Origin: Candidatus Rifleibacteriota bacterium | GTDB taxonomy: Bacteria > Muiribacteriota > Ozemobacteria > Ozemobacterales > Ozemobacteraceae | NCBI GenBank assembly: GCA_012520995.1 | Contig: JAAYNI010000019.1 | Location: 1-37,993 of the forward strand | Reading direction: 5' to 3' | DNA length: 37,993 bases | In this document: in pieces, positions 11,721 to 36,500 of the stretch | How the letters are laid out: every line of letters begins with the position of its first letter | How positions within the stretch are numbered: the stretch's first letter is position 1 | Notes under the pieces: generated by a model | The model's database searches: none | The model's input: the letters and a program-made list of their open reading frames with translations, nothing else | What the model was told of the DNA's origin: nothing | Program-made: the position numbers and the translations under genes

Positions 11721-12884
11721 CTATTCCCTGGTTTTGTTGGTGTAATAGACTTGTGCGAGAATAGCCGCTACGGCACTGTAGAGGTCTTCTGGTATGACAT
11801 CGCCTGCTTCCATTGTTTTATACATTTGTCTTGCCAGAGGTTTATTCTCTAGTATTGGAATGTTATGTTCTTTGGCTATTTCCCTGATTTTTTCAGCCAA
11901 GTGATCGGCTCCTAGGGCTACCACGGTAGGAGCCGTTTCGCCGCCGAATTCATATTTTATGGCTACAGCTATGTGAGTCGGGTTTGTGATAATTACCGTT
12001 GCTTGGGGCACTTCTTCCAGTTGCCGTTTGCTGGAGACAGCTCTTTGTTTATCTCTGATTTTCTGTTTGACATAGGGGTCGCCTTCTTGTTGTTTAAATT
12101 CCTCTTTGACTTCTTGTTTGGACATTTTCAGATTCTCTTCATATCGCCATTTTTGGAAGCCCCAGTCGAGGAGGGCAATTGCCAATAGAATTGCCAATAT
12201 TTTGACTCCCATGGTGAAAACTATATCTAGCAGAGCTGTCATGCCTTGAGCTGGTGATACTTTGAGAATTCCCACAAAAAAAGGAAAATGCTCTTTAAAC
12301 GTGTTGTAGGGAATAATAGCTATAGCTATGACCTTTAGAAATGATTTTACAAGTTCTGCAGCCATTTTCCAAGAAAAGATGTTTCTTATGCCTGAGACAG
12401 GATTGAATCTTTCAATGTCAGGAGTCAGAGGTTTCAGAGTAAAGAGAAATCCGACCTGAATCAGATTTGATAGAGCGGAGGCTACAAATATTGTTGTGCA
12501 GATTGGAAACAGCAGTTTCAACATCAATAACAAAAATTGGTTCATTCCCAGCAAAATATCATCATATGTTGCTTCTTTCAGCAGCAGGTCTGTAAATGAA
12601 AATTGCATGTAGCTGGCGCAATCGCCATATATTGTTGCTCCTTGATTACGTAAAAACAGCAAGCCTGCAAGCAATATTATGACGGATGAAAGATCTTGAG
12701 ATTTTGCGACATTGCCTTTTTCTCTGGCCTCTCTGCGGCGTTTTTCAGTGGCGGGCTCTGTCTTGTCACCTGCAAAAAGCTGAAGGTCGAACGGTCTTTC
12801 GGCAAATGAAAGCTTGTTGGGCAAAGTGTTGTCTTCTAAGCTCAGGATTTCTTGTTCTAATAGAAGAGAAAAGTGGAAGCTCAT
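11721..12884 (-). CDS. flhB: Flagellar export switch protein FlhB
   Basis: Inner-membrane component of the flagellar type III export apparatus that switches substrate class from rod/hook to filament. 387 aa. After an unusual extension of about 30 residues comes the typical DLQLFAGDKTEPAT start, four membrane helices and the cytoplasmic domain with the self-cleaving N301-P-T-H site. The start at 12884 overlaps the fliR stop (ATGA), which supports it, although no Shine-Dalgarno is visible. The last codons and TAG stop (11721-11729) fall inside a G-rich repeat (see findings). It is the last gene of the fliP-Q-R-flhB operon. Confidence 0.93.
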   Translation of the reverse strand: MSFHFSLLLEQEILSLEDNTLPNKLSFAERPFDLQLFAGDKTEPATEKRRREAREKGNVAKSQDLSSVIILLAGLLFLRNQGATIYGDCASYMQFSFTDLLLKEATYDDILLGMNQFLLLMLKLLFPICTTIFVASALSNLIQVGFLFTLKPLTPDIERFNPVSGIRNIFSWKMAAELVKSFLKVIAIAIIPYNTFKEHFPFFVGILKVSPAQGMTALLDIVFTMGVKILAILLAIALLDWGFQKWRYEENLKMSKQEVKEEFKQQEGDPYVKQKIRDKQRAVSSKRQLEEVPQATVIITNPTHIAVAIKYEFGGETAPTVVALGADHLAEKIREIAKEHNIPILENKPLARQMYKTMEAGDVIPEDLYSAVAAILAQVYYTNKTRE

Positions 12885-13660
12885 GGGGAGATCAACCTTG
12901 AAATCTCGAAAATTTTGTTGAGCAATATCTCCAGAAGATCTCTGGAGGCGTCACCCAAAATGTGGATGAAGAGCACTATCATCAAAAGGCCGGCCAGTAT
13001 TTTGATTGCAAATCCAAGCTGGAATATGTTGATTTTGGGCACTGTTCTGGCGATTATGCCGAGAGCCACGTCGCTTATAAGGGTAACGGCTATTATAGGC
13101 ATGGCAACTTGAAGACCTGATACAAAGAGAACCTTTGTGGATTCCATTATTTCCTTTATTGCTAATATGTTTAAGTCAGCTCCGGCGGGCGGTATTTTTA
13201 AAAAGCTGTCAAAGAAAGCTTTTAGAATTATCAAATGCCCGTTGATGCAAAGAAATATAAGCATTCCCAAAAGTCTGAAAGAGTCGGCTACTATTCCAAG
13301 ACTTTGTCCTGATATGGGGTCTGCGACTTGCACAAAGGAAAATCCGATTTGCATGCCAATCATGTTGCCGCCCATTCTCAGAGCTGACTCCGCCAGAATA
13401 GCTACAAAGCCTATTGCAAATCCGAATGAGAGTTCTTTGATGACCAAAATAGCATAGCCCCCTGCTGAAAGAGCTGGGAATGTGTGAGTCTGTAAGAGGG
13501 CTGGCAACACCAGCAAGGCGCAAAGCGCGGAAAGTCCGGCTTTCACTCTGGCTGAAATCTGGTTGCCTGAAAAAACAGGTGTGTATAAGAAAAATCCGCT
13601 GAATCTGACAGTTGCTGCCAAGAAAAGACCAAATGCGTTAAGAAAATAAGCTTGAGTCAT
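12881..13660 (-). CDS. fliR: Flagellar export gate protein FliR
   Basis: Membrane component of the export gate (FliP5-FliQ4-FliR1). 259 aa, the usual length, with six hydrophobic segments and the typical MGGNMIGMQIGFSFVQVADP stretch in the middle. The start codon immediately follows the fliQ stop and the end overlaps flhB by four bases. Confidence 0.92.
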   Translation of the reverse strand: MTQAYFLNAFGLFLAATVRFSGFFLYTPVFSGNQISARVKAGLSALCALLVLPALLQTHTFPALSAGGYAILVIKELSFGFAIGFVAILAESALRMGGNMIGMQIGFSFVQVADPISGQSLGIVADSFRLLGMLIFLCINGHLIILKAFFDSFLKIPPAGADLNILAIKEIMESTKVLFVSGLQVAMPIIAVTLISDVALGIIARTVPKINIFQLGFAIKILAGLLMIVLFIHILGDASRDLLEILLNKIFEISRLISP

Positions 13661-13930
13661 TTAGAAGGCGTAGTTTTCAAGTCCGCCTAAAAGGCGTGTG
13701 GCGAAACCCATCAAAAGATTCAGCATCCAAGGTGCAAGCAGAATCAAAGTGATGGCGGTTGCAAAAAGTTTGGGAATAAAGCTTAAGCTTTGTTCCTGAA
13801 TTGATGTGGCAGTTTGAATTATACTGATGGCTATCCCAAGAAGCATTCCGACAAGAAGCACTGGAGCGGAAAGTGTGAGACACATCAGAAAGGTGTCTTT
13901 GAAGAGTTCTATGAATACCATTTCGTCCAT
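13661..13930 (-). CDS. fliQ: Flagellar export gate protein FliQ
   Basis: 89-aa two-helix membrane protein of the export gate. It contains the family stretch GMLLGIAISIIQTATSIQEQ followed by SLSFIPKLFATAITLI. A G-rich ribosome site overlaps the end of fliP, four bases upstream; the stop directly abuts fliR. Confidence 0.92.
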   Translation of the reverse strand: MDEMVFIELFKDTFLMCLTLSAPVLLVGMLLGIAISIIQTATSIQEQSLSFIPKLFATAITLILLAPWMLNLLMGFATRLLGGLENYAF

Positions 13931-13934
13931 TCAG

Positions 13935-14783
13935 TTATCCCCCAAAGCTTGTCACCAAAGATTTTATGACAAGAGTCCATCCATCTACCAGCACAAAAAG
14001 AAGAATTTTGAATGGCAAAGCTATCATAGCGGGCGGTAGCATCATCATGCCCATGGACATTAAAATGCTGGCTACTACCATATCTATTACGAGAAACGGC
14101 AGATAAATGACTACGCCCATTTGAAAAGCTGTTTTTAGTTCACTGGTTATAAAAGCAGGTATTAAAGCTAAAGTGCTTAAGTCGTTTCGTGTCTTTGGCT
14201 TTTCACCTTTTTGCATGCCTGCGAAAAGAAAAAGATCTGATTCTCTCGCATGGGAAAACATGAAGTTTCTTATCGGGACAATGCCGCGTCTATAGGCTTC
14301 GACATGGTCTATCTCGTTGGCTACATAAGGACGAACGGCATTTTGATAAACGTCGGAAATCACAGGCGACATTATAAAAAAGGTCATGAAAAGAGCTAAG
14401 CCTATAAGTATCTGGTTGCTCGGTTCTTGCTGAGTGCCCAAGGCTCTTCTCACAAATCCTAATACTATGATTATTCTGGTAAAACTGGTGAGCATTATCA
14501 GAATCGATGGGGCGAGGCTAAGAATTGTGAGTATGATCAGGATTTGAAGTCCTGTGCCCAACTGTTGTCGTTCACTTCCAGGGTTTACGTTTATATTGAG
14601 TTCAGGGAGTTCAGGAAAAGCTAAGGTGAAATCTTCGGCTATTGTTGTTTCAGATGTTGTTGCGGTTGCCTGCCTTTCAGTTTGTGCTGACAAGGGCATG
14701 GGGTAAAACAGAATTAAGCAGAGAAAGGCAACTGCCGCGAGTAATCTGCATGGAAAAACTGTCTGTTGAAAGCTTTGGGGCAT
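13935..14783 (-). CDS. fliP: Flagellar export gate protein FliP
   Basis: Main export-gate membrane protein. The start at 14783 is chosen because AGGA (14792-14795) lies 8 bases upstream; an upstream TTG (14819) would add 12 residues without a ribosome site. The product has a cleavable-type signal (ending PLSAQ), an extracytoplasmic segment of about 50 residues, then the conserved helices with LTSFTRIIIVLGFVRRALGT and SMGMMMLPPAMIALPFKILL. First gene of the fliPQR-flhB operon, divergent from flhA. Confidence 0.93.
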   Translation of the reverse strand: MPQSFQQTVFPCRLLAAVAFLCLILFYPMPLSAQTERQATATTSETTIAEDFTLAFPELPELNINVNPGSERQQLGTGLQILIILTILSLAPSILIMLTSFTRIIIVLGFVRRALGTQQEPSNQILIGLALFMTFFIMSPVISDVYQNAVRPYVANEIDHVEAYRRGIVPIRNFMFSHARESDLFLFAGMQKGEKPKTRNDLSTLALIPAFITSELKTAFQMGVVIYLPFLVIDMVVASILMSMGMMMLPPAMIALPFKILLFVLVDGWTLVIKSLVTSFGG

Positions 14784-14804
14784 AGGTTGGTGTCCTGTGT
14801 GATG

Positions 14805-14817
14805 GTGCACTGTGCAC
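14805..14817. promoter_or_regulatory. Candidate operator palindrome in the fliP/flhA divergent region
   Basis: Two copies of the self-complementary hexamer GTGCAC separated by one base form a 13-bp dyad just downstream of the predicted fliP transcription start. It could be a repressor site or a short RNA hairpin. No regulator in the window is an obvious match. Confidence 0.35.
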
Positions 14818-14824
14818 AATAGAA

Positions 14825-14954: not shown

Positions 14955-17057
14955 ATGGCAAATGCGGCAAAAACTGCCTCTGGCAGTGCTTTTGGCGGAT
15001 TGTCTTTGGATTGGCTTGCAAAGAGTCAAGGCCTGCTTTTTGCTGTAGCTCTGGTTGCGGTTATCATAATGATGATAGTCCCTTTGCCCTCGCCGCTTGT
15101 AGATCTCATGTTGACACTGAACATAGCTCTGTCAGTTATTATATTGCTTGTTTCTCTATTCAATAACGATGTCTTGAGCTTTTCCTCTTTTCCTACAATT
15201 CTGATGGTGACTACCATTTTCAGACTGGCTTTGAACGTAAGCTCTACCAGAATCATCCTATCTGGAAAAGGTTCTACTCTACAGCTTGTCAAATCTTTTG
15301 GAAGCTTCGTTGTTGGCGGCAACTATATTGTAGGGTTCGTTGTTTTCCTTATATTGGTTCTGATTCAATTTTTGGTTATAACCAAAGGTGCTGAGCGTAT
15401 TGGCGAGGTGACGGCAAGATTTACTCTTGATGCTATGCCTATTAAAGGAATGGCCATAGATGCTGACTTGAATGCTGGCGCAATAACTCAGGAAGAGGCT
15501 ACGCAAAGAAGACTTGAGCTTTCTCGTGAAGCGGACTTTTACGGCTCAATGGACGGTGCGACCAAGTTTGTCAAAAACGATACTATCGCAGGCATTATAA
15601 TCACTGTTATTAATCTGCTCGGCGGTATAGCTATAGGCGTTATATTCCGAGGAGAAGGCGTTATGGACGCTCTTGCCGCTTATGCTTTATTTACTGTGGG
15701 CAGCGGTCTGTGCACCCAGCTTCCTTCTTTGATGATTTCAACTGCTACAGGTATAGTTGTTACTCGCAGCTCATCGGACAGCAGCCTTGGCCAGGAAATA
15801 AGCATGCAGCTTTTTTCAAACGCAAAAGTAATAGGCATAACAGCAGGACTTTTGATTTTTCTTGGCACTATTCCGGGCTTGCCTAAGCTCAGTTTTTTTA
15901 CTTTAGGTATAATGCTCGCGATTCTAGCTTATGTGCTGGCTAAACATAATGAATTGGCTGTTGTTGCCGAGGCTGAGGCGGCCGCGGCGGCTGTGGAGCA
16001 AGCGCCGAAGGGCCCCGAAGATGTATCTTCATTGCTGGCTGTGGAAAATCTTGAGTTGGAAATAGGCTATAACTTGATTCCCCTGGTTGATACAGAGCAG
16101 GGCGGCGACCTTCTGAATCGCATCACTTTAATTCGCAGGCAAATAGCTATTGATTTGGGACTGGTTGTGCCCTCTATCAGAATAAGAGACAATATACAAT
16201 TGCAGCCTTCTACATACGTTTTTAAAATAAAAGGAAGTGAATATGCGCATTACGAAATTATGCCGGATCATTACCTTGCGATGCTCACAGGTGAACCTTC
16301 ACCTGATGTTAAAGGCATAGAAGTTAAAGAGCCTGCTTTTGGTTTGCCCGCTTTTTGGATAACACCCGAAATGAGAGAAAAAGCTGAGATAGCAGGCTAC
16401 GCTGTGGTTGATCCTTCCACGGTTATAGCTACACATCTGACGGAACTGATAAAACGCAATGCACACGAGATACTGGGGCGCAAGGAACTGCAACAGCTTC
16501 TGGACTCTGCAAGAGAAACTGACCCGCTTCTTGTGGATGAAGTGGTGCCCAAAATTATAAGCAATGCGACTCTTTTAAAAGTTCTCCAAAACTTGCTTTA
16601 TGAAAATGTTTCTGTGAAATATTTGACTGTAGTGTTGGATGCTTTCTCTGGCTGTCACGGCATAACAGATACTAATTTGCTGACAGAAATTGCACGTCAG
16701 GCACTTTCAAGACATATTTGTAAAGATTTGCTTGAAGATGATGGCGTTTTGAGAGTAATATCAATTGATCCTCAGCTGGAACAAAGTCTTAGCTCTGCTC
16801 TGCAAAATGTGGACGGAGTTATGCACCTGGCTATTGATCCTGCCAGCGCAAAGCTTCTGATGGAAAAGATGACGGCATCTATCGAGAAAGCTGTAAGAGA
16901 AGGCCACTCGCCGATTATACTTTGCAGTTCGGCTTTGCGTCTTAGCATAAAGCAGCTTGCCAATCGTGTAGCCCCTCATTTGGCTGTTCTTTCTTATCAG
17001 GAGATTCCAGCAAATGTGAACTTTGAAACTATAGGCATTATAAGTTTGAGAGAATAG
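14955..17057 (+). CDS. flhA: Flagellar export gate protein FlhA
   Basis: 700-aa core of the flagellar export apparatus that forms the nonameric ring receiving chaperone-substrate complexes. The N-terminal half has about eight membrane helices and the family stretch DGATKFVKNDTIAGIIIT; the C-terminal cytoplasmic domain starts near residue 350 and ends TIGIISLRE. A strong AAGGAGG precedes the ATG. First gene of the divergent block flhA-(MinD-like)-flhG-flhF. Ten bases after the stop, a heptamer repeat (AACTGAT) begins. Confidence 0.95.
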   Translation: MANAAKTASGSAFGGLSLDWLAKSQGLLFAVALVAVIIMMIVPLPSPLVDLMLTLNIALSVIILLVSLFNNDVLSFSSFPTILMVTTIFRLALNVSSTRIILSGKGSTLQLVKSFGSFVVGGNYIVGFVVFLILVLIQFLVITKGAERIGEVTARFTLDAMPIKGMAIDADLNAGAITQEEATQRRLELSREADFYGSMDGATKFVKNDTIAGIIITVINLLGGIAIGVIFRGEGVMDALAAYALFTVGSGLCTQLPSLMISTATGIVVTRSSSDSSLGQEISMQLFSNAKVIGITAGLLIFLGTIPGLPKLSFFTLGIMLAILAYVLAKHNELAVVAEAEAAAAAVEQAPKGPEDVSSLLAVENLELEIGYNLIPLVDTEQGGDLLNRITLIRRQIAIDLGLVVPSIRIRDNIQLQPSTYVFKIKGSEYAHYEIMPDHYLAMLTGEPSPDVKGIEVKEPAFGLPAFWITPEMREKAEIAGYAVVDPSTVIATHLTELIKRNAHEILGRKELQQLLDSARETDPLLVDEVVPKIISNATLLKVLQNLLYENVSVKYLTVVLDAFSGCHGITDTNLLTEIARQALSRHICKDLLEDDGVLRVISIDPQLEQSLSSALQNVDGVMHLAIDPASAKLLMEKMTASIEKAVREGHSPIILCSSALRLSIKQLANRVAPHLAVLSYQEIPANVNFETIGIISLRE

Positions 17058-17064
17058 TGAATGC

Positions 17065-17083
17065 AACTGATAACTGATAACTG
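17065..17083 (+). repeat. Short heptamer tandem repeat after flhA
   Basis: AACTGATAACTGATAACTG, 2.7 copies of AACTGAT, sits between the flhA stop and the next ribosome site. Similar heptamer repeats are known from cyanobacterial intergenic DNA; here it is one of several simple repeats near gene ends. Confidence 0.6.
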
Positions 17084-17123
17084 CGTCTGCAAATGCTCTT
17101 TCAGCGAAAAACGGGAGCAATTC

Positions 17124-17870
17124 ATGGAGTCTGTTATGAGACCGGCTCCTTTTGCTGCTATAGCTTTTGTTTTTCCTGATATGGAAGAGTTTGGGATTTT
17201 GCCTCCTGTAAAATGGTTTGACAGAATCGCTGAAAACACTTCTAGCATTTGCCTGTGGGATCAGGCGGGTTTTGTTCCCCCTGACTTGATTCCTCAAACT
17301 CAGATCAGACTTGCTTATCCTACTCCGGTAAGATTGAATGGCAAATCTAATGCTGTCACTCTTCTTCCGCAACTTTCGGTGCCATGGATGTCTGAAGATT
17401 GTAACGAAGAAGATTGCTACGAGTTTTTATCGCATCTGGCTAGGTCTTTGAAGCCATATTCGCAAGTTTGGGTGACAATTAAAGCTTCAGATATTTATTC
17501 AAAACAAGGTTTATTGCACGCTACAGATGCGGCATGTGTTCTAGTTCCAGCTTCTCAAGAAGGTATTTTGCCTTCTTACGAAGCAATAAAGTCTATAACT
17601 TTGTCAGGTTATTTTGCTCCTCTGGGTATCTTGCAGTATGCCTCTTCAGAAGCCGATCTTCAAGAAGATTACGCTGACAGAATTAAAAAAGTTGCAAAGA
17701 GATTTTTAACGCTTGACCTTGTAGAAGCCGGAGTGATATTTTCTAGCGGAGGGTATGAACAACCTGAAAAAAAAGACGGATCTTTGGGAAAGCGCATTTT
17801 AGAACTTAACGCTCGAGAGCGGGACTTTTTGTATTGCCTGTTTGAGAGCGTTTTATATAGAGAGAAATAG
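17124..17870 (+). CDS. MinD/ParA-like protein lacking the P-loop, between flhA and flhG
   Basis: 248 aa, no named family recognised. The ATG at 17124 is chosen because GGGAG (17113-17117) lies 6 bases upstream. Residues about 100-206 align by eye with the second half of the downstream FlhG. KPYSQVWVTIKASD stands where FlhG has DKADYLLIDTGAG (Walker B region); HATDAACVLVPASQEGILPS matches QAADKIIVVTTTEPTALVDA; and RIKKVAKRFLTLDLVEAGVI matches RLAYVAREYLDGYELSFMGS. The first 100 residues hold no GKGGVGKS-type loop, and the Walker B aspartate is not preserved, so ATP hydrolysis is unlikely. It is cotranscribed with FlhA, FlhG and FlhF. I infer a flagellar placement or export accessory that may pair with FlhG or FlhF; resemblance by eye is the only evidence. 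Confidence 0.6.
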   Translation: MESVMRPAPFAAIAFVFPDMEEFGILPPVKWFDRIAENTSSICLWDQAGFVPPDLIPQTQIRLAYPTPVRLNGKSNAVTLLPQLSVPWMSEDCNEEDCYEFLSHLARSLKPYSQVWVTIKASDIYSKQGLLHATDAACVLVPASQEGILPSYEAIKSITLSGYFAPLGILQYASSEADLQEDYADRIKKVAKRFLTLDLVEAGVIFSSGGYEQPEKKDGSLGKRILELNARERDFLYCLFESVLYREK

Positions 17871-17877
17871 ACGGATT

Positions 17878-18813
17878 ATGGCGGAATCGACTCTGGAAAC
17901 AATAGAGAGCATTGTAGAAACAGCAAGGCGTGAAATAAAGCCTTATGTTGCAGAGCGCTTGCAGTCGCGCACTCCCAGATTGCCAGGAGCTAAAATAGCT
18001 CAGACAATTACTGTCACTTCTGGCAAGGGCGGAGTAGGGAAAAGCAGCCTCACGGCTAATTTGGCAATAAGCCTCGCTATGTCAGGCAAGAAAGTTATAG
18101 TGCTTGATGCTGATCTGGGGCTTGCGAATGTAGATGTTATTTTTGGCGTGCGTCCCGAATACAGCCTTTTGGACGTAATCTCGGGTGAGCGCAAGATTGA
18201 TGAGATAATGGTTGAAGGACCGCACGGCATACAAATAATAGCAGGCGGTTCGGGGGTGGCTGAATTGGCTAATCTTGATTCTGAAAATGCTTCGCAGCTC
18301 TTCCAGCAACTTACTTTCCTTGAAGATAAAGCCGACTATCTTTTGATAGATACAGGCGCAGGTCTTAATCGCACCGTGCTCTCCTTTTGCCAAGCTGCTG
18401 ATAAAATAATTGTAGTGACTACAACAGAGCCTACCGCCTTGGTTGACGCTTTCGGTGTAATTAAAGTTATCGTCAGGCGTGAGAAAAAAGCTAATTTGTC
18501 GGTTCTTGTAAACAGGGTTGAATCAAAAGAAGAAGGCGAAGAGATTTATTGCAGACTTGCTTATGTGGCGAGAGAATATTTGGACGGCTACGAACTTTCA
18601 TTCATGGGAAGCGTTCCTCAAGACAAAAATATGCACTTAGCCATAAGAAAACAGCAGCCGCTTCTCTTGCTTTTCCCCGATTCACCAGCCGCGAAAGCTT
18701 TGCAGAGGCTATCAAAGGCGGAGCTGTCAGGTGTAGCTGATGAGTTTGATAGCGAGGAACATGCAGGATTTTTTACCAGGTTGGCGAATATTTTTAAGGG
18801 AGGGGCAGCGTGA
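17878..18813 (+). CDS. flhG: MinD-like flagellar number regulator FlhG
   Basis: Membrane-associated ParA/MinD-type ATPase that controls flagellar number and activates the FlhF GTPase. The deviant Walker A GKGGVGKSS lies at about residues 49-57, followed by VIVLDADLGLANVDVIFGV and the Walker B region YLLIDTGAG. The ATG at 17878 starts eight bases after the previous stop. A TTG at 17842 would extend it into the preceding gene and has no ribosome site. The 45-residue lead before the P-loop does not show the DQAxxLR motif known for FlhF activation. It precedes flhF, the reverse of the usual flhF-flhG order. Confidence 0.9.
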   Translation: MAESTLETIESIVETARREIKPYVAERLQSRTPRLPGAKIAQTITVTSGKGGVGKSSLTANLAISLAMSGKKVIVLDADLGLANVDVIFGVRPEYSLLDVISGERKIDEIMVEGPHGIQIIAGGSGVAELANLDSENASQLFQQLTFLEDKADYLLIDTGAGLNRTVLSFCQAADKIIVVTTTEPTALVDAFGVIKVIVRREKKANLSVLVNRVESKEEGEEIYCRLAYVAREYLDGYELSFMGSVPQDKNMHLAIRKQQPLLLLFPDSPAAKALQRLSKAELSGVADEFDSEEHAGFFTRLANIFKGGAA

Positions 18814-20288
18814 GCACAGTTTACAGGCAAACTACGACTATTGTCGCTACCACTCAATATGAAGCCAAAATTAAGGCTGAACTTGCCTATGGCAAGGACG
18901 GTTTTGAAGTTGTGGAAAAGCGTAAAGTTGAAAGGCCGCTCATGCTTGGTTTCGGAACTGAAACAGTATGGGAGCTGACTATAGCTGTAAACAAAGAACG
19001 CCTCTCGGATGTGTTTGTGCAAGAGCGTAACGATGTTCCGAAGCGCCCTGTTATTTCCAGAGAAATCACTCCAGGAACTAAAATTTCACCTTCATCTTTA
19101 ATTGGAAGACCATCATCCTTACCATCTTCTTCTTTTTCCATAGATATTGACGAGCCTGTAGTTGTGCCTAATTATGCTGCAAGACACGCAGGGGCTCAAA
19201 CCTATAAGAATGTGAGCAATCTTTCTGAGAGCAGGGCAGTTAACGCTCTTCGCTCTATTCAAGATGGCGAGGATGATCCAAAACCCTCTAAGCAAGCTGT
19301 TAAGCTGATAGAGTCTGACAAGTTCACTAACATCATTGATGAGCTTATCGGCTGTAAAGAAATGGACAAACCTTTTGATGTCTCTGGACAGGATGCCGCA
19401 GATTCTGAAACCTCTCGTATTTTGATGAACGAGATCGCTAGCCTTAAAAAGATGCTTTCCAAGATAGTCCAAGGTTCAGGCACTATGCTTCAGGAGCCTC
19501 TGGGTGTAGCTTCTGTAAGAAATTGTCTTGAACATATCGGAGTTCCTAACAACGTGATTGAACACGTTCTGAAAGAGGCTCTGGATGGAGCAGGCAAGGA
19601 AATTCTTGATGTTCCCCTTAAGGTTTTTAAACTGATTGAAGCTTGGCTGAATAAAAATCTTTCTTTTATTTCTGATTCTTTAAATGACAGCAGCGTGAAG
19701 CCTAAAATAATTACTCTTATGGGACCTACTGGCGTTGGTAAAACCACTACTATTGGAAAGATAGTGGGCAGGTATCGCCTTACCCCTGGCAGGCAACGCA
19801 GTTCAGTAGCCGTTTTTACTTTGGATACCTACAGAATAGGCGCTTCGGATCAACTGGAAACCTATGCCGATATTTTTGATGCCGAGCTTGAAGTTCTTTA
19901 CAAACCGGAAGAGCTTGAGGAAGCGGTTAAAAAGCACAAAGACAAAGATCTGATTGTAGTTGATACTGCGGGCAGATGTCAGAAGGCTACAAAAGAACTT
20001 CAAGAACTTAAGCTTTTCTTGGATAAAATCCCTCTTTCTACACGATATCTGGCTCTTTCTTCTACCTCGAAATATGATGATATGCTTGATGTGGTTAAAT
20101 GTTTTGACAAGGTAGGTTTTGATCGTCTGATATTCACTAAGGTTGATGAAACTAATACAGTAGGTTCTTTGTTGGCTCTTATGCTAAAAACTGGCAAGCC
20201 TTTGGGCTATATCACCAACGGCCAGACAGTTCCAGATCATTTTCAAGCCGCTCAGCCCGATTTTTTCACCTCCTGGCTTATGCTATGA
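18810..20288 (+). CDS. flhF: Flagellar SRP-like GTPase FlhF
   Basis: Signal-recognition-particle-type GTPase that marks the site of flagellar assembly. 492 aa. The N-terminal B domain (1-60) is followed by a low-complexity linker (about 70-200), then the N domain and G domain. Motifs in order: G1 GPTGVGKTT (about residue 305), DTYRIGA, G3 DTAGR (about 385), G4 TKVDE (about 443). The start is a GTG overlapping the flhG stop (GTGA, 18810-18813), supported by GGGAGG a few bases upstream. Last gene of the flhA operon. Confidence 0.93.
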   Translation: MSTVYRQTTTIVATTQYEAKIKAELAYGKDGFEVVEKRKVERPLMLGFGTETVWELTIAVNKERLSDVFVQERNDVPKRPVISREITPGTKISPSSLIGRPSSLPSSSFSIDIDEPVVVPNYAARHAGAQTYKNVSNLSESRAVNALRSIQDGEDDPKPSKQAVKLIESDKFTNIIDELIGCKEMDKPFDVSGQDAADSETSRILMNEIASLKKMLSKIVQGSGTMLQEPLGVASVRNCLEHIGVPNNVIEHVLKEALDGAGKEILDVPLKVFKLIEAWLNKNLSFISDSLNDSSVKPKIITLMGPTGVGKTTTIGKIVGRYRLTPGRQRSSVAVFTLDTYRIGASDQLETYADIFDAELEVLYKPEELEEAVKKHKDKDLIVVDTAGRCQKATKELQELKLFLDKIPLSTRYLALSSTSKYDDMLDVVKCFDKVGFDRLIFTKVDETNTVGSLLALMLKTGKPLGYITNGQTVPDHFQAAQPDFFTSWLML

Positions 20289-22060: not shown

Positions 22061-23101
22061 ATGTTCAGAACAATAGATCTGTTTGCTGGTATAGGCGGTA
22101 TAAGGCTTGGGTTTGAGCAAGCTTTTAAAGAGAAAACAGAAACAGTCTTTGTAAGTGAATGGGATACAAAAGCTCAAGAAACATACCGGGCAAACTTCAA
22201 TGATGAAATAGAAATTATGGGCGATATCACGAAAATCGCTGAAGAAGATATTCCTGAACATGATATTTTACTTGCCGGCTTTCCTTGCCAAGCTTTTTCT
22301 CTTGCTGGACAACGAAGAGGTTTTGAAGATGCCAGAGGAACCTTGTTTTTTGATGTGGCTAGAATAGTAAAGCATCATCAGCCGAAAGTCGTGTTTGCAG
22401 AGAACGTTAAGAATCTGCTTAATCACGATAAAGGCCGCACTTTTAAGGTTATTAAAGAAATTTTAACCGACTTAGGCTATAGCGTTTTTCATCAAGTTTT
22501 AAACAGCAAAGACTTTGGAGTTCCACAAAATAGAGAAAGAATTTATATAGTCGCATTCAGAAAGAATATAGCCCCTGAAAACTTTGAGTTTCCTGAAAAA
22601 ACTGATGACACAAAAACAATCGCAGATATTCTTGAAGAAACTGTGCCTCCTACAAGATACTATTTGTCCACAGTTTATTTGGATACTTTAAGAAAACACA
22701 GAGAACGCCATGAAGCTAAAGGAAATGGCTTTGGATACGAAATCAGAGAACATGATTCGATTGCCGGGGCGATTGTTTGCGGCGGGATGGGAAGAGAAAG
22801 AAATCTGGTTGTAGACGAAAGGCTGACAGACTTTACTCCTGAAACCCATATAAAAGGCGAAGTTAATAGAGAATACGTAAGAAGGATGACCCCTAGAGAA
22901 TGGGCTAGACTTCAGGGCTTCCCTGACACTTTTAAGCTAGTTGTTGCGGATACCCACCTTTACAAGCAATTCGGAAACTCTGTAACGGTTCCGGTTATAA
23001 GAGCAATTGCCGAAAAGATTAAAAATCATCTGGAAGGCGGAAAATCTGTGGATAAAAAAAAGAAACATTTGAGTGGAGCCTGTGGTGACTTTAAATCTTA
23101 G
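22061..23101 (+). CDS. DNA (cytosine-5-)-methyltransferase
   Basis: Transfers methyl from S-adenosylmethionine to C5 of cytosine in a specific DNA site. 346 aa, an average length for single-specificity enzymes. Motifs in order: I DLFAGIGG (residues 6-13), IV GFPCQAFS with catalytic C76, VI ENV (114-116), VIII QNRER (156-160), a short target-recognition region (about 190-270), IX RRMTPREWARLQGFP and X QFGNSVTVPV. Intact and probably active. AAGGAG precedes the ATG. No restriction endonuclease is recognised beside it, so it may be an orphan or solitary methylase. Its 3' end overlaps an acetyltransferase gene. Confidence 0.92.
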   Translation: MFRTIDLFAGIGGIRLGFEQAFKEKTETVFVSEWDTKAQETYRANFNDEIEIMGDITKIAEEDIPEHDILLAGFPCQAFSLAGQRRGFEDARGTLFFDVARIVKHHQPKVVFAENVKNLLNHDKGRTFKVIKEILTDLGYSVFHQVLNSKDFGVPQNRERIYIVAFRKNIAPENFEFPEKTDDTKTIADILEETVPPTRYYLSTVYLDTLRKHRERHEAKGNGFGYEIREHDSIAGAIVCGGMGRERNLVVDERLTDFTPETHIKGEVNREYVRRMTPREWARLQGFPDTFKLVVADTHLYKQFGNSVTVPVIRAIAEKIKNHLEGGKSVDKKKKHLSGACGDFKS

Positions 23102-23555
23102 TATAGCGAAAATTTCGGACAGAGATGAAAAACTTTCTATTGTCAGAGAAGTATTGGCTGATCTGTCTGAATGGTTCGGGATTCCTGAGGCTGTCGAAGA
23201 ATATATAAAAGAAGCAGGGAATTTGCCTTTATGGGCAGCCAAAGTCGGAGAAAATAATGCAGGTTTTGTGACTTTGCGAGAATCCAGCAAAGACTGCGGA
23301 GAAATTCATTGCATGGGAGTTAAAAAGCTTTGGCACAGACAAAGAGTCGGAACTTTGCTTATGAATGCCTTGATAAAAGAAGCGAAAAACAAATACGAGT
23401 ATTTGCAGGTCAAAACGCTGGATGAAGGGCAATGTGAATATTATGACAGGACTATCAGATTTTATCGGAACTGCGGCTTTAGAAAGCTGGAAGTCTTTCC
23501 AACCTTATGGAGTGAAACCAATCCTTGCTTGATTATGATAATGAAAATCGGTTAA
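23085..23555 (+). CDS. GNAT-family N-acetyltransferase
   Basis: Acetyl-CoA-dependent acetyltransferase, substrate unknown. About 156 aa from the GTG at 23085, chosen because GGAG (23075-23078) lies six bases upstream; GTGs at 23073 and 23082 are alternatives. The acetyl-CoA loop is seen as VKKLWHRQRVGTLLMNALI (R/Q-x-x-G-x-G/T pattern), and the C-terminal RFYRNCGFRKLE is the typical GNAT motif B. The first 17 bases overlap the methyltransferase gene, implying coupled translation. Aminoglycoside-acetyltransferase-like families share this layout, but I cannot assign a substrate. Confidence 0.8.
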   Translation: MTLNLSIAKISDRDEKLSIVREVLADLSEWFGIPEAVEEYIKEAGNLPLWAAKVGENNAGFVTLRESSKDCGEIHCMGVKKLWHRQRVGTLLMNALIKEAKNKYEYLQVKTLDEGQCEYYDRTIRFYRNCGFRKLEVFPTLWSETNPCLIMIMKIG

Positions 23556-23573
23556 TTCACTATTTCCGATCCA

Positions 23574-25136
23574 TTACACCTTGCTTCCTGTTTCAGATGT
23601 CGTCTTAACTTTGCGCAGGATTTTTTTTGTTCTTTCCAGCGGCAAGGGCAGCTCTTCTTCGTTGAAGTAGTCTATTTTAACCACTTTGACTACAGCTTCG
23701 TGACCGTCAGACCCGACTGGGACATACACTAAGTCTCCGATCTTGATGCTGTCGTCATCAGTAAGGTAATAATAAGTCTTGTAGCCTTTACTGAAGGTTA
23801 CGCTGCATAAAATATAATCTGATTTGCGGCGTTTGGGTTTTCCGTAAATATCGGGATTTAAGATATCTCCAATACCATAGTAAAGCATAAAATCAGAGAG
23901 CTTGGTCGCAATTTTTTCAAAGTGCTTTGGAAGTCCATTTTTGTCGTAACTGCCTTCAATAAGAAGTTGAGGGGCATTTTTGTAATCAATTGTGAGCTTA
24001 TAGTCTTTTGTTTCATCCGAGGCATCAATGGCATCATCAGGATTGCCTTCTATGTCTGTAAAGAAGCCTTCGTTTGCAAAAATTCCAAAATCGTCCATCA
24101 GGCTTTTAACAGCCTCTTTCATTTCAAACTTATGAGATATTTTGCACCCTGGGCCGACATTCTGAAAATATTCGATAGTTCCGGCTTCCCTGTCTAAAAT
24201 CAGTTGCTCCGAGTAGTCCCAAGATAAATATCTTGAAAGAGGGTCTTTGGCTATTTCATCAGGATGGATTTTTGCCAATCTACGATAATCCAAGGTAAAT
24301 TTGGTTATTTCGCCATTATCATAAGAGTTGCAATCAAAAACCCACAGGTTTGGTATGTCGAGGCTCTCGCGAATCAATTGCGACAAGTCTGTGCCGTTAT
24401 GATCGAAATAGTTGTCAATAGGGTGTGAATAATTATATGTCTTCCCATCTCTATTAGTCAGCTCTAGGTTCCAATAACCAGCGTCACATCCTGGAGGGCC
24501 TATATGAGAGGTGTAGGCAAAATACTCTTCAAAGATTTTCAGTAAGTTTTCAGCAAGTGCCTTATTGATTTTAAAATTTTTTGTTCTGGCTGTCTTATCT
24601 TCTTTTGAGGTATCTGTATGATTATAAGCTGAAAACCATACTCTTCCTTGTCTGGTGATAGTAAGTCGCTGCTCTATTTCTTTGCCTATTAGATGGGGTC
24701 CCAAGCAAACCGCTCCGTATGTAGTAATACGTATCTTCCTCAAAGTGCCTTCAAATGTGTAAGGATTGCTTTCCGTAAGAGAAGCCAGATGTTCAAAAGC
24801 CAGAATGAACCATTCTCTGTTTTGGGGCTGAAAAGTTTCTTCATCTTTAAAAGCCCAATAATTAAAGTATTTCCATAGAGCATATATTGCAGAGGTAAGA
24901 AAATGAAGGCTTCTGAATTCGGATATTGTTTGCTTTACTTCTTCGTGGTTGTTTGCCATTTCTCCATATCTTCCTGAGAATTCAGGAGCATATTCCAGAC
25001 TGAATCCTAGAGCAGCGCATTCTTCTCCTAATAAGCAGTCAAACAGCTCTGTTTGATTGATGCTTCGGTCACGAAATTTGTCCAGCCATTTCAGGGCGAA
25101 TTCATGAATCTCTTTTTTAGGTGCAAGTCCGCTCAT
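23574..25136 (-). CDS. Uncharacterised 520-aa protein, convergent with the methyltransferase pair
   Basis: No family is recognised with confidence. The protein lacks a signal peptide and membrane helices, so it is probably cytoplasmic. The N-terminal part (1-110) is helical, with FLTSAIYALWKYFNYWAF. The middle (110-440) is mixed, with a possible motif GPPGCDAGYWNLEL. The last 75 residues (KRRKSDYILCSVTFSKGYKT onward) form a beta-rich module with GDLVYVPVGSDGHEAVVKVV, a pattern seen at the C-terminus of various uncharacterised proteins. The ATG at 25136 is preceded by GAGAGG. Only 18 bases separate its stop from the acetyltransferase stop. Its nearness to a solitary methyltransferase makes a restriction or defence role worth testing, but no nuclease motif is evident. 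Confidence 0.6.
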   Translation of the reverse strand: MSGLAPKKEIHEFALKWLDKFRDRSINQTELFDCLLGEECAALGFSLEYAPEFSGRYGEMANNHEEVKQTISEFRSLHFLTSAIYALWKYFNYWAFKDEETFQPQNREWFILAFEHLASLTESNPYTFEGTLRKIRITTYGAVCLGPHLIGKEIEQRLTITRQGRVWFSAYNHTDTSKEDKTARTKNFKINKALAENLLKIFEEYFAYTSHIGPPGCDAGYWNLELTNRDGKTYNYSHPIDNYFDHNGTDLSQLIRESLDIPNLWVFDCNSYDNGEITKFTLDYRRLAKIHPDEIAKDPLSRYLSWDYSEQLILDREAGTIEYFQNVGPGCKISHKFEMKEAVKSLMDDFGIFANEGFFTDIEGNPDDAIDASDETKDYKLTIDYKNAPQLLIEGSYDKNGLPKHFEKIATKLSDFMLYYGIGDILNPDIYGKPKRRKSDYILCSVTFSKGYKTYYYLTDDDSIKIGDLVYVPVGSDGHEAVVKVVKIDYFNEEELPLPLERTKKILRKVKTTSETGSKV

Positions 25137-30560: not shown

Positions 30561-30616
30561 AATAAAAAAGAGAAATATCTTTGCTTTTTCCCTTCAATGC
30601 GAAAGGGAATAATGTA

Positions 30617-33352
30617 ATGCTAAGATCATTATTTACTGGAGTCACAGGACTCAAACAGTTTCAAACCAAGATGGATGTGGTGTCTAACAATATCGCCAAC
30701 GTAGATACTACTGGCTTTAAACGCGGCAGAGCAATGTTTGCGGATCTCTTCTCTGAGACAATTCGTCACGGTCAGCAGTCTTTTGGGGACTTTGGCAGCC
30801 AGAATCCGATGCAGATCGGTCTTGGCACCAAGATCGCTTCGATAGACACCATAATGACTCAAGGGAAAATCGAAAATACCGGCCGGGACAATGACATAGC
30901 CATTGAAGGCGATGGATTCTTCATGGTTAAGGGCTTCGATTCCAATATATATTACACAAGAGACGGCAATCTGAACGTTTCCGACAGTCACGATCTGATT
31001 ATGACTAACACAGGAAGCAAAATTCAGGGCTGGTCTGCTATGCAGGATCCCAGAACAGGCAATCTGGAAATGAGGGAAACAGATGTTGTGCCTTATGACA
31101 TCAACATAGCCCGCTATCTCAAAAAACATGCTCATCAGACAAATGAGATTACCTATTCTTGTAATCTTCAATCCAGTTCCCCTGACAGAGATATAGAGTT
31201 TGGAGTGGAAACCCTGACATTTATTGACAGTGCCGATCAAAAGCAGGATTTACGCTTCAAATTCAAAAAACTGGATGCGGAAAACTGGCTCTGGACTGCT
31301 CATGATGATACAGAAGGAAACGTTGCGACAGGAACATTGAAGTGCGATGAAGATGGCACTGTTCTGGAAAGCACAGTAGAACCTGCCGGTTTGACTTCAA
31401 CTCTTTCAGCTCCATATTTCACTTACGACCCTGACGGAAACCCTCAGCCTGGTTCAGCTACCATGCCTATTAACAAAGTTACAAACCAAGGCAATGGCTT
31501 GAGCTCAGGTGTTACAGTTTCTGGAAACTTGGTCAAAGATGAAACAGTCGAGATTATTTTCGACGGCGGAGATCCGACCAGAGCTGTATCTTACAGAGTT
31601 GTGGGTTCAGAGCGCGGTTTCATACACTCAGGCACATTGGGCGGCACCCAAGCAAGATTTGCGGGTGATCCGGTTACCTTTGGACTTTCATGGACTCCCG
31701 CAGCTAATACTTCATTTACAGTTACAGACAGTCAGTTCGCTGTTCCGAGAACGGCTACTGTCAGCTTCGTTGGCGGCACTACTTACACAGCATCTGAGAT
31801 AGTCGATACAATAAATAATGCTCTTGCGAATGACGGTGTCAGAGCCACTGCTTATTTTGATGCTGTCACGTCACAGTTGCAAATTGTCAGCAATGAGATA
31901 GGTGAAAGACAGAACTTGACAATAGGCGGCGCTATAGGCAACTTTGCAGACCTCGGGCTTACAGCTGGCACTCAGGTCGGGACAGGCGCAGGCAAGGCGG
32001 AAGTATACAGTGACCTTGCCATGTCTGCAGCTTTCGCGGCCGACAATGTTGACGTGACAGCTGATGTTCAGCTGGTTGTCACAGACAGGCATGGCAGAGC
32101 GGCCACTATTGAGTTTCCCGACATAGTTGCAGGTGTGAATCAGATTTACTCCAGAGGAGCTATTCTGGCTGAAATCAACTCTCAGCTTGTAGCCAACAAT
32201 GTCAGCGCCAATGCGGCCTTTCTTGATACAGACAATGACGGAAGTCCAGATCAGCTTATGATCTCCAGCAATGTTCCAGGTTCAGGCGAAAGAGTTATAC
32301 TGACTGGAACCAACATCGACCAGCTTGGCTTGGCTGGCGGAAGTTATAGCGGTACTGCGGCTGTCAGTCACTTCGAATACGGAGGTTTGACCTTTGACCT
32401 CACCGAGGGAACTAATCATTGGCTTCCCAACGAGTCCTTATCCTTTGTTACAACGGCGGAAAAGGGTGCCGCTAGCTCGGTGAATATTTACGTGCCTCAG
32501 CCGGGAACCAAGAAAATGGCCTTTGCGACTAATGTTAACAACCACGAATACAAAATCGAAGGAGCTGTCAGCAAAGGTGCTCAGCATAAAACCAATATAG
32601 TTATTTATGACTCCCTTGGCACCCCTCATGGCATGGTCACCACTTGGGAACATACTGACAAAACTAAGCATGAGTGGACATACAAAATGTCATACTCTCC
32701 CGATGATCCTGAAATCCTGGCTTGGCTCAAAGACCCTGCTAACAATATACTGGATCCCGAAAGTCCTACAGATGAAGAACTTGAGCGAGCCAATGATTCT
32801 TTGATCACAGATCGCACAGGCAAGATGTATTTCCAAAACGACGGAAAGATAGATGTTGCCCGTTCTTATATTCCGTCATTCAGCTTGCAGCCGAGAGGCA
32901 GCAATCCTCTCAAAATTGATCTGGCCACTGACCTTATAACTCAATTCGATTCTCAGTTCACTACTAAGGCTGAAAATCAGGATGGATATGCTATGGGTCT
33001 TCTTCAGAAGATTTACTTCGAAGAAGACGGAGTGGTTCGCGGGGTCTATTCTAATGGACAAAAGCAGCCTATAGCACAGCTTGCCATAGCTACTTTTAAC
33101 AATCCGGAAGGTTTGGAAAAGAAAGGCAATAATCTCTATGCCTTTGCTCCGGGTTCAGGTCTGGCAGTTGTTTCAAGAGCAGGAGTAGGGCTTGCTGGCA
33201 AAGTAGTGGCTAACTCGCTTGAAATGAGCAATGTAGATCTTTCTCAGGAGTTCACCGATATGATTGTTACTCAAAGAGCTTTCCAAGCAAACTCCAGAGT
33301 AATAACTACATCAGATGAACTTTTGCAGGAATTGGTAAACCTTAAACGCTGA
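30617..33352 (+). CDS. flgE: Flagellar hook protein FlgE (unusually long)
   Basis: Subunit of the flagellar hook. The ATG at 30617 has AGGG nine bases upstream. The D0 N-terminus LRSLFTGVTGLKQFQTKMDV, then VSNNIANVDTTGFKRGRAMF, and the C-terminus LEMSNVDLSQEFTDMIVTQR, then AFQANSRVITTSDELLQ are canonical. At 911 aa it is about twice the usual 400-500 aa. The extra mass lies in the outer domains (about residues 200-650) and includes two stretches resembling the flagellin/hook IN domain (near residues 375-470 and 480-600). Exported through the FlhA/FlhB gate encoded in this window. A terminator-like hairpin follows the stop. Confidence 0.93.
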   Translation: MLRSLFTGVTGLKQFQTKMDVVSNNIANVDTTGFKRGRAMFADLFSETIRHGQQSFGDFGSQNPMQIGLGTKIASIDTIMTQGKIENTGRDNDIAIEGDGFFMVKGFDSNIYYTRDGNLNVSDSHDLIMTNTGSKIQGWSAMQDPRTGNLEMRETDVVPYDINIARYLKKHAHQTNEITYSCNLQSSSPDRDIEFGVETLTFIDSADQKQDLRFKFKKLDAENWLWTAHDDTEGNVATGTLKCDEDGTVLESTVEPAGLTSTLSAPYFTYDPDGNPQPGSATMPINKVTNQGNGLSSGVTVSGNLVKDETVEIIFDGGDPTRAVSYRVVGSERGFIHSGTLGGTQARFAGDPVTFGLSWTPAANTSFTVTDSQFAVPRTATVSFVGGTTYTASEIVDTINNALANDGVRATAYFDAVTSQLQIVSNEIGERQNLTIGGAIGNFADLGLTAGTQVGTGAGKAEVYSDLAMSAAFAADNVDVTADVQLVVTDRHGRAATIEFPDIVAGVNQIYSRGAILAEINSQLVANNVSANAAFLDTDNDGSPDQLMISSNVPGSGERVILTGTNIDQLGLAGGSYSGTAAVSHFEYGGLTFDLTEGTNHWLPNESLSFVTTAEKGAASSVNIYVPQPGTKKMAFATNVNNHEYKIEGAVSKGAQHKTNIVIYDSLGTPHGMVTTWEHTDKTKHEWTYKMSYSPDDPEILAWLKDPANNILDPESPTDEELERANDSLITDRTGKMYFQNDGKIDVARSYIPSFSLQPRGSNPLKIDLATDLITQFDSQFTTKAENQDGYAMGLLQKIYFEEDGVVRGVYSNGQKQPIAQLAIATFNNPEGLEKKGNNLYAFAPGSGLAVVSRAGVGLAGKVVANSLEMSNVDLSQEFTDMIVTQRAFQANSRVITTSDELLQELVNLKR

Positions 33353-34031: not shown

Positions 34032-35066
34032 ATGGTTGACACCTTATCACAAAGCGAAATAGATGCTCTATTGTCCGCATTGACTCTTGTCGACGAGACG
34101 GAGATGTCCAAGGGCAAAGACAAAGCCTCATCTTCTAAGACCGCTTCTTCCGAAGATAAGAAAAAGAAAGAAACTCTCTACGACTTCAGACGTCAAACCA
34201 AATTTTCCAGAGAGCAGATGGGCACTATGCAAATGGTGCATGAGATATTTGCAAGACTCTTAGGAACCGACCTGTCTACTCGTTTAAGAGCCTATGTTCA
34301 GGCCACTGTGATGTCTGTTGAGCAAAAAACCTTTGAGGAATTTACACAAAAGATTTACAGCCCGACTTTTTTAACTGTCATTTCAGATGATGCTCTTGCT
34401 GACAAGATAATGATAGACATGAACTTAAGCATTGCCTTTGCCATTCTTGACAGACTCCTTGGCGGCAGCGGTACTCCTCTTGGTATTCTTAGACAGCTTA
34501 CAGGCGTTGAAAAACGCATAATGCAAAAAATCCTTAAAGAACTGATGAAGTTCTATGAAGAAGCTTGGGAGAATATAGTAAAACTTTCACCTCAAATTGA
34601 CCTTATAGAGTCTAATCCGCAGTTCGCTCAGATAGTTCCCCCTAACGAAATTGTGGTAGCAATAGCTATTGAGGTCAAAATTCACGATATTATTGGTGAT
34701 ATGAATATCTGCATACCCTATTGCACAGTTGAGCCAATAATCGACAGGTTTAATGCGGCTTCTTGGTTTGCGGCACTTCGAAAAGAGCCGGGGCAGGGGA
34801 GCAATCTTGCTATGCTGACACAGCTTGAGGCTATGACTGTGCCTCTTGTTGTCGAGCTTGGAACTACGACTTGTCATCTCAGCGATATTTTGAATTTGCA
34901 GCCTGGCGATTACATAGTGACTGACCAGTCGGCAAAGAATGATTTGAACATCAAAGTAGGAAATTTAGTGAAATTTTTGGGAACACCGGGAATATCTGGA
35001 AAAAGAATGGCGATATCCATAACAGAGGTTTTTGAATCCCATGACGAAACCGGGAGGAACATTTAA
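34032..35066 (+). CDS. fliM: Flagellar motor switch protein FliM
   Basis: C-ring protein that binds phosphorylated CheY and sets rotation direction. 344 aa. The N-terminal CheY-binding segment (LSQSEIDALLSAL) is present, followed by a charged linker, the CheC-like middle domain (about 50-240) and a C-terminal SpoA domain (about 255-335). Ends directly against fliY. Confidence 0.95.
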   Translation: MVDTLSQSEIDALLSALTLVDETEMSKGKDKASSSKTASSEDKKKKETLYDFRRQTKFSREQMGTMQMVHEIFARLLGTDLSTRLRAYVQATVMSVEQKTFEEFTQKIYSPTFLTVISDDALADKIMIDMNLSIAFAILDRLLGGSGTPLGILRQLTGVEKRIMQKILKELMKFYEEAWENIVKLSPQIDLIESNPQFAQIVPPNEIVVAIAIEVKIHDIIGDMNICIPYCTVEPIIDRFNAASWFAALRKEPGQGSNLAMLTQLEAMTVPLVVELGTTTCHLSDILNLQPGDYIVTDQSAKNDLNIKVGNLVKFLGTPGISGKRMAISITEVFESHDETGRNI

Positions 35067-36500
35067 GTGAGCGATATACTGACTCAAGACGAAATAAACG
35101 CTTTGCTCAGTGGCGAAATCCCAGCTAAGGAAGAAAATGAGCTAAAACCTGAAAAACAGCACTCTGAGCCTGTGAAGCAAGAGACGGCTCCTAAGCAGGA
35201 ATCAAAAAGCCAGTCTTCAGAAAAATCAAAAGACGGCGATGGCTACCGCTTCTCACAAGAAGATATAAATCAACTTGGGGAAGTCTCAAAGCTTTCGTTG
35301 GGTGCGACTTCTTCTGTGGTTCAAATTCTCTTGAATAAAGATATCGAGATAGAAATGCGCAGACTCAGAGTCTTGTCCTTCAAGGAAATTATAGCCGAAT
35401 ATAAAAACGAAGAATATGTGTTTGCTAAAATCGCTTTTACAGAAGGTTTTAACAGCATGTCTTACATACTGTTGAAAAAATCATCTTCAGCGGTTATAGG
35501 CGACTTGATGATCGGCGGAGATGGTGTCAGGAGCAAGTTTGAGGAGATTCATATTTCTGCGGTAGGCGAGCTTCTTAACCAAATGATGGGAAAGACTACC
35601 ACAAGTCTTTCAGAGATATTTAAAAAGCGTGTGGATATCTCTCCGCCAGAGGTAGAACTGGTTTCTCTCAGTAAAATGAAGCCGCAAGATGAACTTTCCG
35701 AGGACTCAGAATTTTTATTGACTACTTTTTTAATTAAAATTGGTGATTTAATTACTACGGAAATCATACAGCTTCTGCCGATAGATTTTGCAGCCAGTAT
35801 GGCTAAAGAATTGAATGATATCAAAGCTAGAAGAGAAGAGAAAGAAAGCACGGGTGTGAATATGGCTAAAAAAACACTGGCTGCTCCCCCTTCGCAGCAG
35901 ACATCTGAACAAAAACAATCGCAGCAAGGACAGCAGCAGACTGTCTCTCCTCCGTCTTATCAAGGCTCGCAGCCATATCCTCAAACGCCACAGCCTCCAT
36001 ATCTTAATCCTCACGCAGGCTATCCGCAAGGGCAGCAGGGCTATGCTCCGCAAGGCTATCAGCCTCAGCCTGCCGGTTATCCTGGTTCTTATTTTCCTCC
36101 TCCTCTTCAGCAACAGCCTTTCCAAGGCCAAATGCCTCCTTATCCGCAGCAATCCGTTCCGCCTTGCGGAATGTCCCCCTTGGCGGCTCCGCCTCTTCAG
36201 GGAGCGGCTCCTGAGTTTCCTCTTTTGCAAATGCCTCACTCAATAGGTTTGCAATCAAATATAGATCTTTTGCTTGATGTGCACTTGCAGGTAACGGTAG
36301 AACTTGGCAGAACCAAAATGCTCATTAAAGATGTGCTTGAATTGGGAGTAGGTTCTGTAGTAGAGTTGAATAAGCTAGCAGGCGAATCTGTGGAAGTTTT
36401 TGTTAATAATAAACTCATAGCCAAAGGCGAAGTAGTTGTCATAGATGAAAACTTTGCAGTTAGAATAACAAGCATAGTAAATCCTCAAGAAAGGATATAA
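35067..36500 (+). CDS. fliY: Flagellar motor switch phosphatase FliY (FliN with CheC-like domain)
   Basis: C-ring component that also dephosphorylates CheY-P. It starts at a GTG abutting the fliM stop, with GGGAGG nine bases upstream. Order: CheY-P-binding segment [11 protein letters not shown] (5-15); charged linker; CheC-like domain (60-250); a Pro/Gln/Tyr-rich linker (about 275-388); FliN/SpoA domain (393-470). The second CheC active-site helix keeps E168-LL-N171. The first has E72-VS-K75, with Lys replacing the usual Asn, so only one phosphatase site looks functional. The 110-residue PQGQQGY-type linker is long for the family. Confidence 0.92.

Follow-up and report, generated by a model that had tools for sequence, protein, structure and literature searches.

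A P-loop-less FlhG paralogue between flhA and flhG of Ozemobacteraceae, a putative ATP-independent activator of FlhF

In the 37,993-nucleotide stretch of Riflebacteria DNA analysed here (the window), an open reading frame, hereafter X, lies between flhA and flhG, and the question raised by this locus is what a protein resembling FlhG, but without a P-loop, does beside an intact FlhG. The original prediction had described X as a pseudo-ATPase paralogue of FlhG, cotranscribed with the genes of FlhA, FlhG and FlhF, which might either titrate FlhG or FlhF or serve as a scaffold at the new flagellar pole. The flagellar operon setting was borne out by the order of the cluster, flhA-X-flhG-flhF (14955-20288), and the coordinates of the features are collected in Table 1.

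Table 1. Position of X, its diagnostic sites and the associated flagellar genes in the window.
Feature	Position	Strand	Remarks
flhA, export-gate protein, 700 aa	14955..17057	+	PF00771 E 1.5e-249; immediately 5' of X
X, P-loop-less FlhG paralogue	17061..17870	+	269 aa from 17061, 248 aa from 17124
Site of the enhancer helix in relatives' X; the window reads MQLITDNCVCKCSFSEKREQF	17061..17123	+	7-bp tandem repeat ACTGATA x2, about 17066-17083
Former Walker A site of X	17178..17201	+	DMEEFGIL where the window's FlhG has GKGGVGKS (alignment)
Former Walker B Asp of X, Thr139	17475..17477	+	T/S/V across 22 copies (alignment)
Lys177 of X	17589..17591	+	Invariant, 22/22; corresponds to GtFlhG K177, FliY-binding site (PMC12327844)
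Arg207 of X	17679..17681	+	R 15, K 7 of 22; corresponds to GtFlhG R207, FliY-binding site
Phe215 of X	17703..17705	+	Invariant, 22/22; corresponds to GtFlhG F215, FliY-binding site
flhG, 311 aa	17878..18813	+	P-loop intact, C-terminal GFFTRLANIFKGG helix, N-terminus without DQAxxLR
flhF, SRP-type GTPase, 492 aa	18810..20288	+	PF00448 E 2.3e-35; TIGR03499 E 1.7e-44; G motifs intact
fliM	34032..35066	+	N-terminus MVDTLSQSEIDALLSA
fliY, CheC and FliN domains	35067..36500	+	

The stop codon of flhA occupies positions 17055-17057, and the frame of X opens 3 nt beyond it. Because X of the relatives starts a few nucleotides past the flhA stop, position 17061 is the start of the gene by synteny. The internal ATG at 17124, with GGGAG 5' of it, has the better ribosome-binding sequence and gives the shorter version of the protein; both starts are possible.

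The surroundings of the cluster were also inspected. A fliP/Q/R-flhB run is located on the minus strand at 11721-14819, divergent from the flhA-X-flhG-flhF genes. Downstream of flhF, at 22061-25136, there are ORFs named by eye as cytosine DNA methyltransferase-like and acetyltransferase-like, as well as an ORF of 520 aa, which are possibly an insertion between flagellar genes. The FlgE-like hook protein encoded at 30581-33352 consists of 923 aa, compared with the usual length of about 400 aa.

The search with the single X sequence against Pfam, NCBIfam and PDB sequences gave no match, and the pairwise BLASTP comparison with the neighbouring FlhG was not significant (E 1.3). The comparison of 22 X homologues with 21 FlhGs in hhalign gave a probability of 95.5% and an E-value of 1.4e-8, and the HMM of the X homologues matches FlhG genes within and beyond Riflebacteria at E about 1e-7 to 1e-10. 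The AlphaFold model of X, for which the input alignment consisted of X sequences only, reached pLDDT 84 and pTM 0.84; the top three Foldseek matches to it in the PDB are Geobacillus FlhG (4rz3, 4rz2) with E-values of 1.5e-10 to 1.6e-9, followed by FleN and MinD. X is an FlhG paralogue with a MinD-like fold, as had been proposed, and the stretches that the original prediction quoted as parallel to the second half of FlhG do align, at about residues 170-235 of FlhG. The blank pairwise and single-sequence searches would also be expected of an unrelated protein resembling FlhG by chance, but the profile E-value, the HMM matches to FlhG genes and FlhG as the best structural match make this extremely improbable.

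The Walker A P-loop (GKGGVGK[TS]) is missing from all 22 copies of X, and the column of the Walker B Asp contains T in 11, S in 10 and V in one of them, so that both losses, first noticed in the window's copy, are true of every X. In the DxD motif the first Asp is kept (D67, 22/22) and the second is lost. Likewise, nothing in X corresponds to the C-terminal amphipathic membrane-targeting helix of FlhG (GFFxRLxxxFKGG in the neighbouring FlhGs). To judge from these residues, X appears to be a pseudo-ATPase.

A survey of relatives for the same gene showed that X is present in 22 of the 24 Ozemobacteraceae (phylum Riflebacteria) genomes searched, with flhG directly downstream in every case (22/22) and flhA upstream in at least 18 of the 22. 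Of the two genomes that lack X, one is 64% and the other 82% complete, and the search for FlhG was also blank in them; X occurs together with FlhG in all 22 genomes and is absent only where FlhG was likewise not found. A profile search of 40 Riflebacteria genomes revealed no X beyond these 22, and a full-length match was found in none of 358 other sampled genomes. Several of the weak matches outside Ozemobacteraceae are FlhG genes, with the C-terminal half alone covered.

X is under purifying selection, yet it is faster-evolving than FlhG: in most pairs X has a dN about 2-5 times as high as FlhG has. Its dN/dS (NG86) is 0.06-0.30 in close pairs with 58-90% identity. It is a conserved, constrained gene and not a chance ORF. 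The high dN, the long stem of X in the tree and the loss of the N-terminal helix from the window's copy (both described below) could be read as signs of a decaying duplicate without function; this is very unlikely in view of the low dN/dS values, the 14 invariant columns of the alignment and the finding of no broken copy among 22.

The enhancer helix (EH) is the N-terminal DQAxxLR helix of FlhG, the Gln of which stimulates the FlhF GTPase (PMC12826062, PMC12327844). It occurs in 16 of 20 FlhGs of other phyla and in none of the 22 FlhGs adjoining X. The N-terminus of X itself reads M.DQAxxLR.LK, i.e., the EH, in 19 of the 22 copies, and NQASTLQ, with the Gln kept, in two further copies. In the AlphaFold model of one relative's X, residues 4-17, which correspond to the EH, form a helix.

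The X of the window carries an unrelated 21-residue stretch where the relatives have the EH, and since the helix is gone from this copy, the original prediction missed it. The EH motif was absent from all frames of the 5' region of the window's X, the best score for a frame-shifted EH remnant in the window fell well inside the window's own background, and the strict DQAxxLR motif was not found in any frame of the 96%-complete genome to which the window belongs. The loss could conceivably be an artefact of the assembly at the 7-bp repeat. The FlhF of this species would be without a recognisable EH partner. The search for compensating changes in FlhF gave no clear signal in the window's genus, with 8 family-invariant positions altered there and 1-16 in the other genera. 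Since the species retains X without the EH, the EH cannot be the sole reason why X is kept, and after the loss X could keep only docking, or another role.

The binding of GtFlhG to FliY is nucleotide-independent and requires K177, R207 and F215; the text of that paper prints 'Arginine 277', and the variant used there is R207E (PMC12327844). Two of the three corresponding positions of X are invariant and the third is always basic (Table 1). The GtFlhG residues were mapped to X with an offset of 8 in the GtFlhG numbering, and the residue numbers of the two proteins are identical by coincidence of the 17061 start. FliM and FliY are encoded in the same window, and their N-termini contain EIDALL/EINALL, which we take to be typical FlhG docking peptides.

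Pseudoenzymes often bind their active paralogue, and X adjoins FlhG and co-occurs with it in 22/22 genomes; if X formed a heterodimer with FlhG as its pseudo-ATPase subunit, titrating or tuning FlhG, this would also explain why the window's species still has X although its EH is gone. However, MinD/FlhG dimers are built around two ATPs by way of the P-loop and switch regions, and these parts are exactly those lost in all copies of X, while the EH and the FliY site are its best-kept parts. The heterodimer is, on this evidence, unlikely.

We propose instead that X, a pseudo-ATPase arisen as a tandem duplicate of flhG and the carrier of the EH in most Ozemobacteraceae, probably acts as an ATP-independent, C-ring-docking activator of FlhF. 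X would bind FliY/FliM in the cytosol and, once docked, would present the EH Gln to the homodimer of GTP-bound FlhF at the basal body as it forms. The Gln would trigger GTP hydrolysis by FlhF, X itself going through no cycle of ATP or membrane binding, and the FlhG next door would perform the ATP-dependent, membrane-bound work without EH contact with FlhF. In B. subtilis, flagella and hooks are distributed normally with ATPase-dead FlhG, deletion of the FlhG membrane-targeting sequence (MTS) has a modest effect, and the EH variant Q8A is nearly equivalent to a null or deletion (PMC12327844). Because the ATPase-dead protein distributes them normally and Q8A is close to null, a nucleotide-free carrier of the EH could do the central job. 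The chances are about even that the activities of FlhG are divided in this way throughout the family, between a cycling FlhG without the EH and a soluble, EH-bearing and C-ring-docking X, the switching-off of FlhF being freed from the ATP cycle. The fold, the ATPase loss, the paralogy and the operon of the original prediction stand, whereas the presence of the EH on 19/22 X and 0/22 FlhGs points to FlhF activation with C-ring docking in place of titration or a polar scaffold.

The analysis of other Riflebacteria showed two tandem FlhGs, each with a P-loop, in families f7 (two genomes), f6 (one genome) and f3 (four genomes). In f7 and f6 the EH is present on the flhA-proximal FlhG copy only. 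Families f4 and f5 have a single FlhG with the EH, and f2 has a single FlhG without it. FlhF can work without the EH, because the f3 pair and the single f2 FlhG are devoid of it.

Individual loci illustrate these arrangements. L137 (G029:C80) and L144 (G037:C42) contain a tandem flhG pair between flhA and flhF with intact P-loops and with DQAVKLR on the first copy only. At the f3 loci (L133, L140, L143, L145) FlhF is present and the EH is found on neither of the tandem P-loop FlhGs. The first FlhG copy of L136 (G028:C311) is highly divergent, with a branch length of 2.9, the sequence DQLSDLR and an altered P-loop, GPKGGCGKT; it may represent an intermediate stage between FlhG and proteins like X.

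In the phylogenetic tree, the first copies of f3 and f7 cluster together and so do the second copies, with a support of 96 each; the duplication is therefore older than f3 and f7. X is attached by a stem of 4.2 changes per site, and the AU test gave p 0.62 for its placement with the FlhGs of its own family and 0.59 for its placement with the f3/f7 first copies. X is too divergent for the tree to place it in the copy-1 lineage or as a separate duplication. Its position in the cluster and the EH, rather than the tree, suggest that X would be the first copy of the f3/f7 duplication.

Another possibility is that X has nothing to do with FlhF activation and is a scaffold for the FlhA export gate or for a landmark of the cell pole. 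X directly follows flhA, a few nucleotides past its stop where this could be read, and the invariant D67, Q68, W137, F256 and E262 are not explained by FlhG. This position is, however, the one that a tandem duplication of flhG would produce, given that in other Riflebacteria, too, flhG comes after flhA, and nothing in the sequence of X points to FlhA or to a landmark. We regard such a role as distinctly unlikely, and retain the activation of FlhF by a C-ring-docking X as the preferred reading.

In the control of flagellar number and place by FlhF and FlhG, the ATP cycle of FlhG, its membrane binding, C-ring loading and the activation of FlhF are difficult to study apart, since FlhG alone carries out all four. 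In the Ozemobacteraceae, a gene duplication appears to have uncoupled the activation of FlhF from the ATP cycle, so that this uncoupling can be put to a direct test. Neither an FlhG pseudo-ATPase nor a tandem FlhG of Riflebacteria was found described in the open-access literature, and the main text of a study reporting that Riflebacteria are rich in novel families does not mention FlhG (PMC10849945). X would be a pseudo-enzyme FlhG paralogue that redistributes the functions of FlhG, and a pseudo-enzyme of the MinD/ParA class within a flagellar regulatory circuit.

FlhG/YlxH/FleN (PDB 4rz2, 4rz3, 5j1j) is the MinD-like ATPase in the flagellar switch that it forms with FlhF. X resembles it in fold, in operon position, in the FliY-binding K/R/F and, in most copies though not in that of the window, in the DQAxxLR helix. 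It differs from FlhG in being without the Walker A motif, the Walker B Asp and the C-terminal membrane helix, in the changed second Asp of DxD, and in sitting beside an intact FlhG that is itself without the DQAxxLR helix. The fold is also common to X and the MinD/ParA-type ATPases, but these dimerise with ATP and cycle on a membrane or on DNA, which X, judging from the motifs lost, would not be able to do.

The two-copy FlhGs of f7, f6 and f3 are arranged in tandem between flhA and flhF, as are X and FlhG, and a lone EH, where there is one, lies on the flhA-proximal copy, matching X. Unlike the X/FlhG pair, they have a P-loop on both copies (GKGGVGK; GPKGGCGKT in f6 copy 1). SRP RNA activates the Ffh-FtsY GTPases, and the EH of FlhG replaces it for FlhF (PMC12826062). 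If our reading of X is right, X would be, like SRP RNA, an activator without a nucleotide cycle of its own, although it is a protein and not an RNA, and its origin is unrelated.
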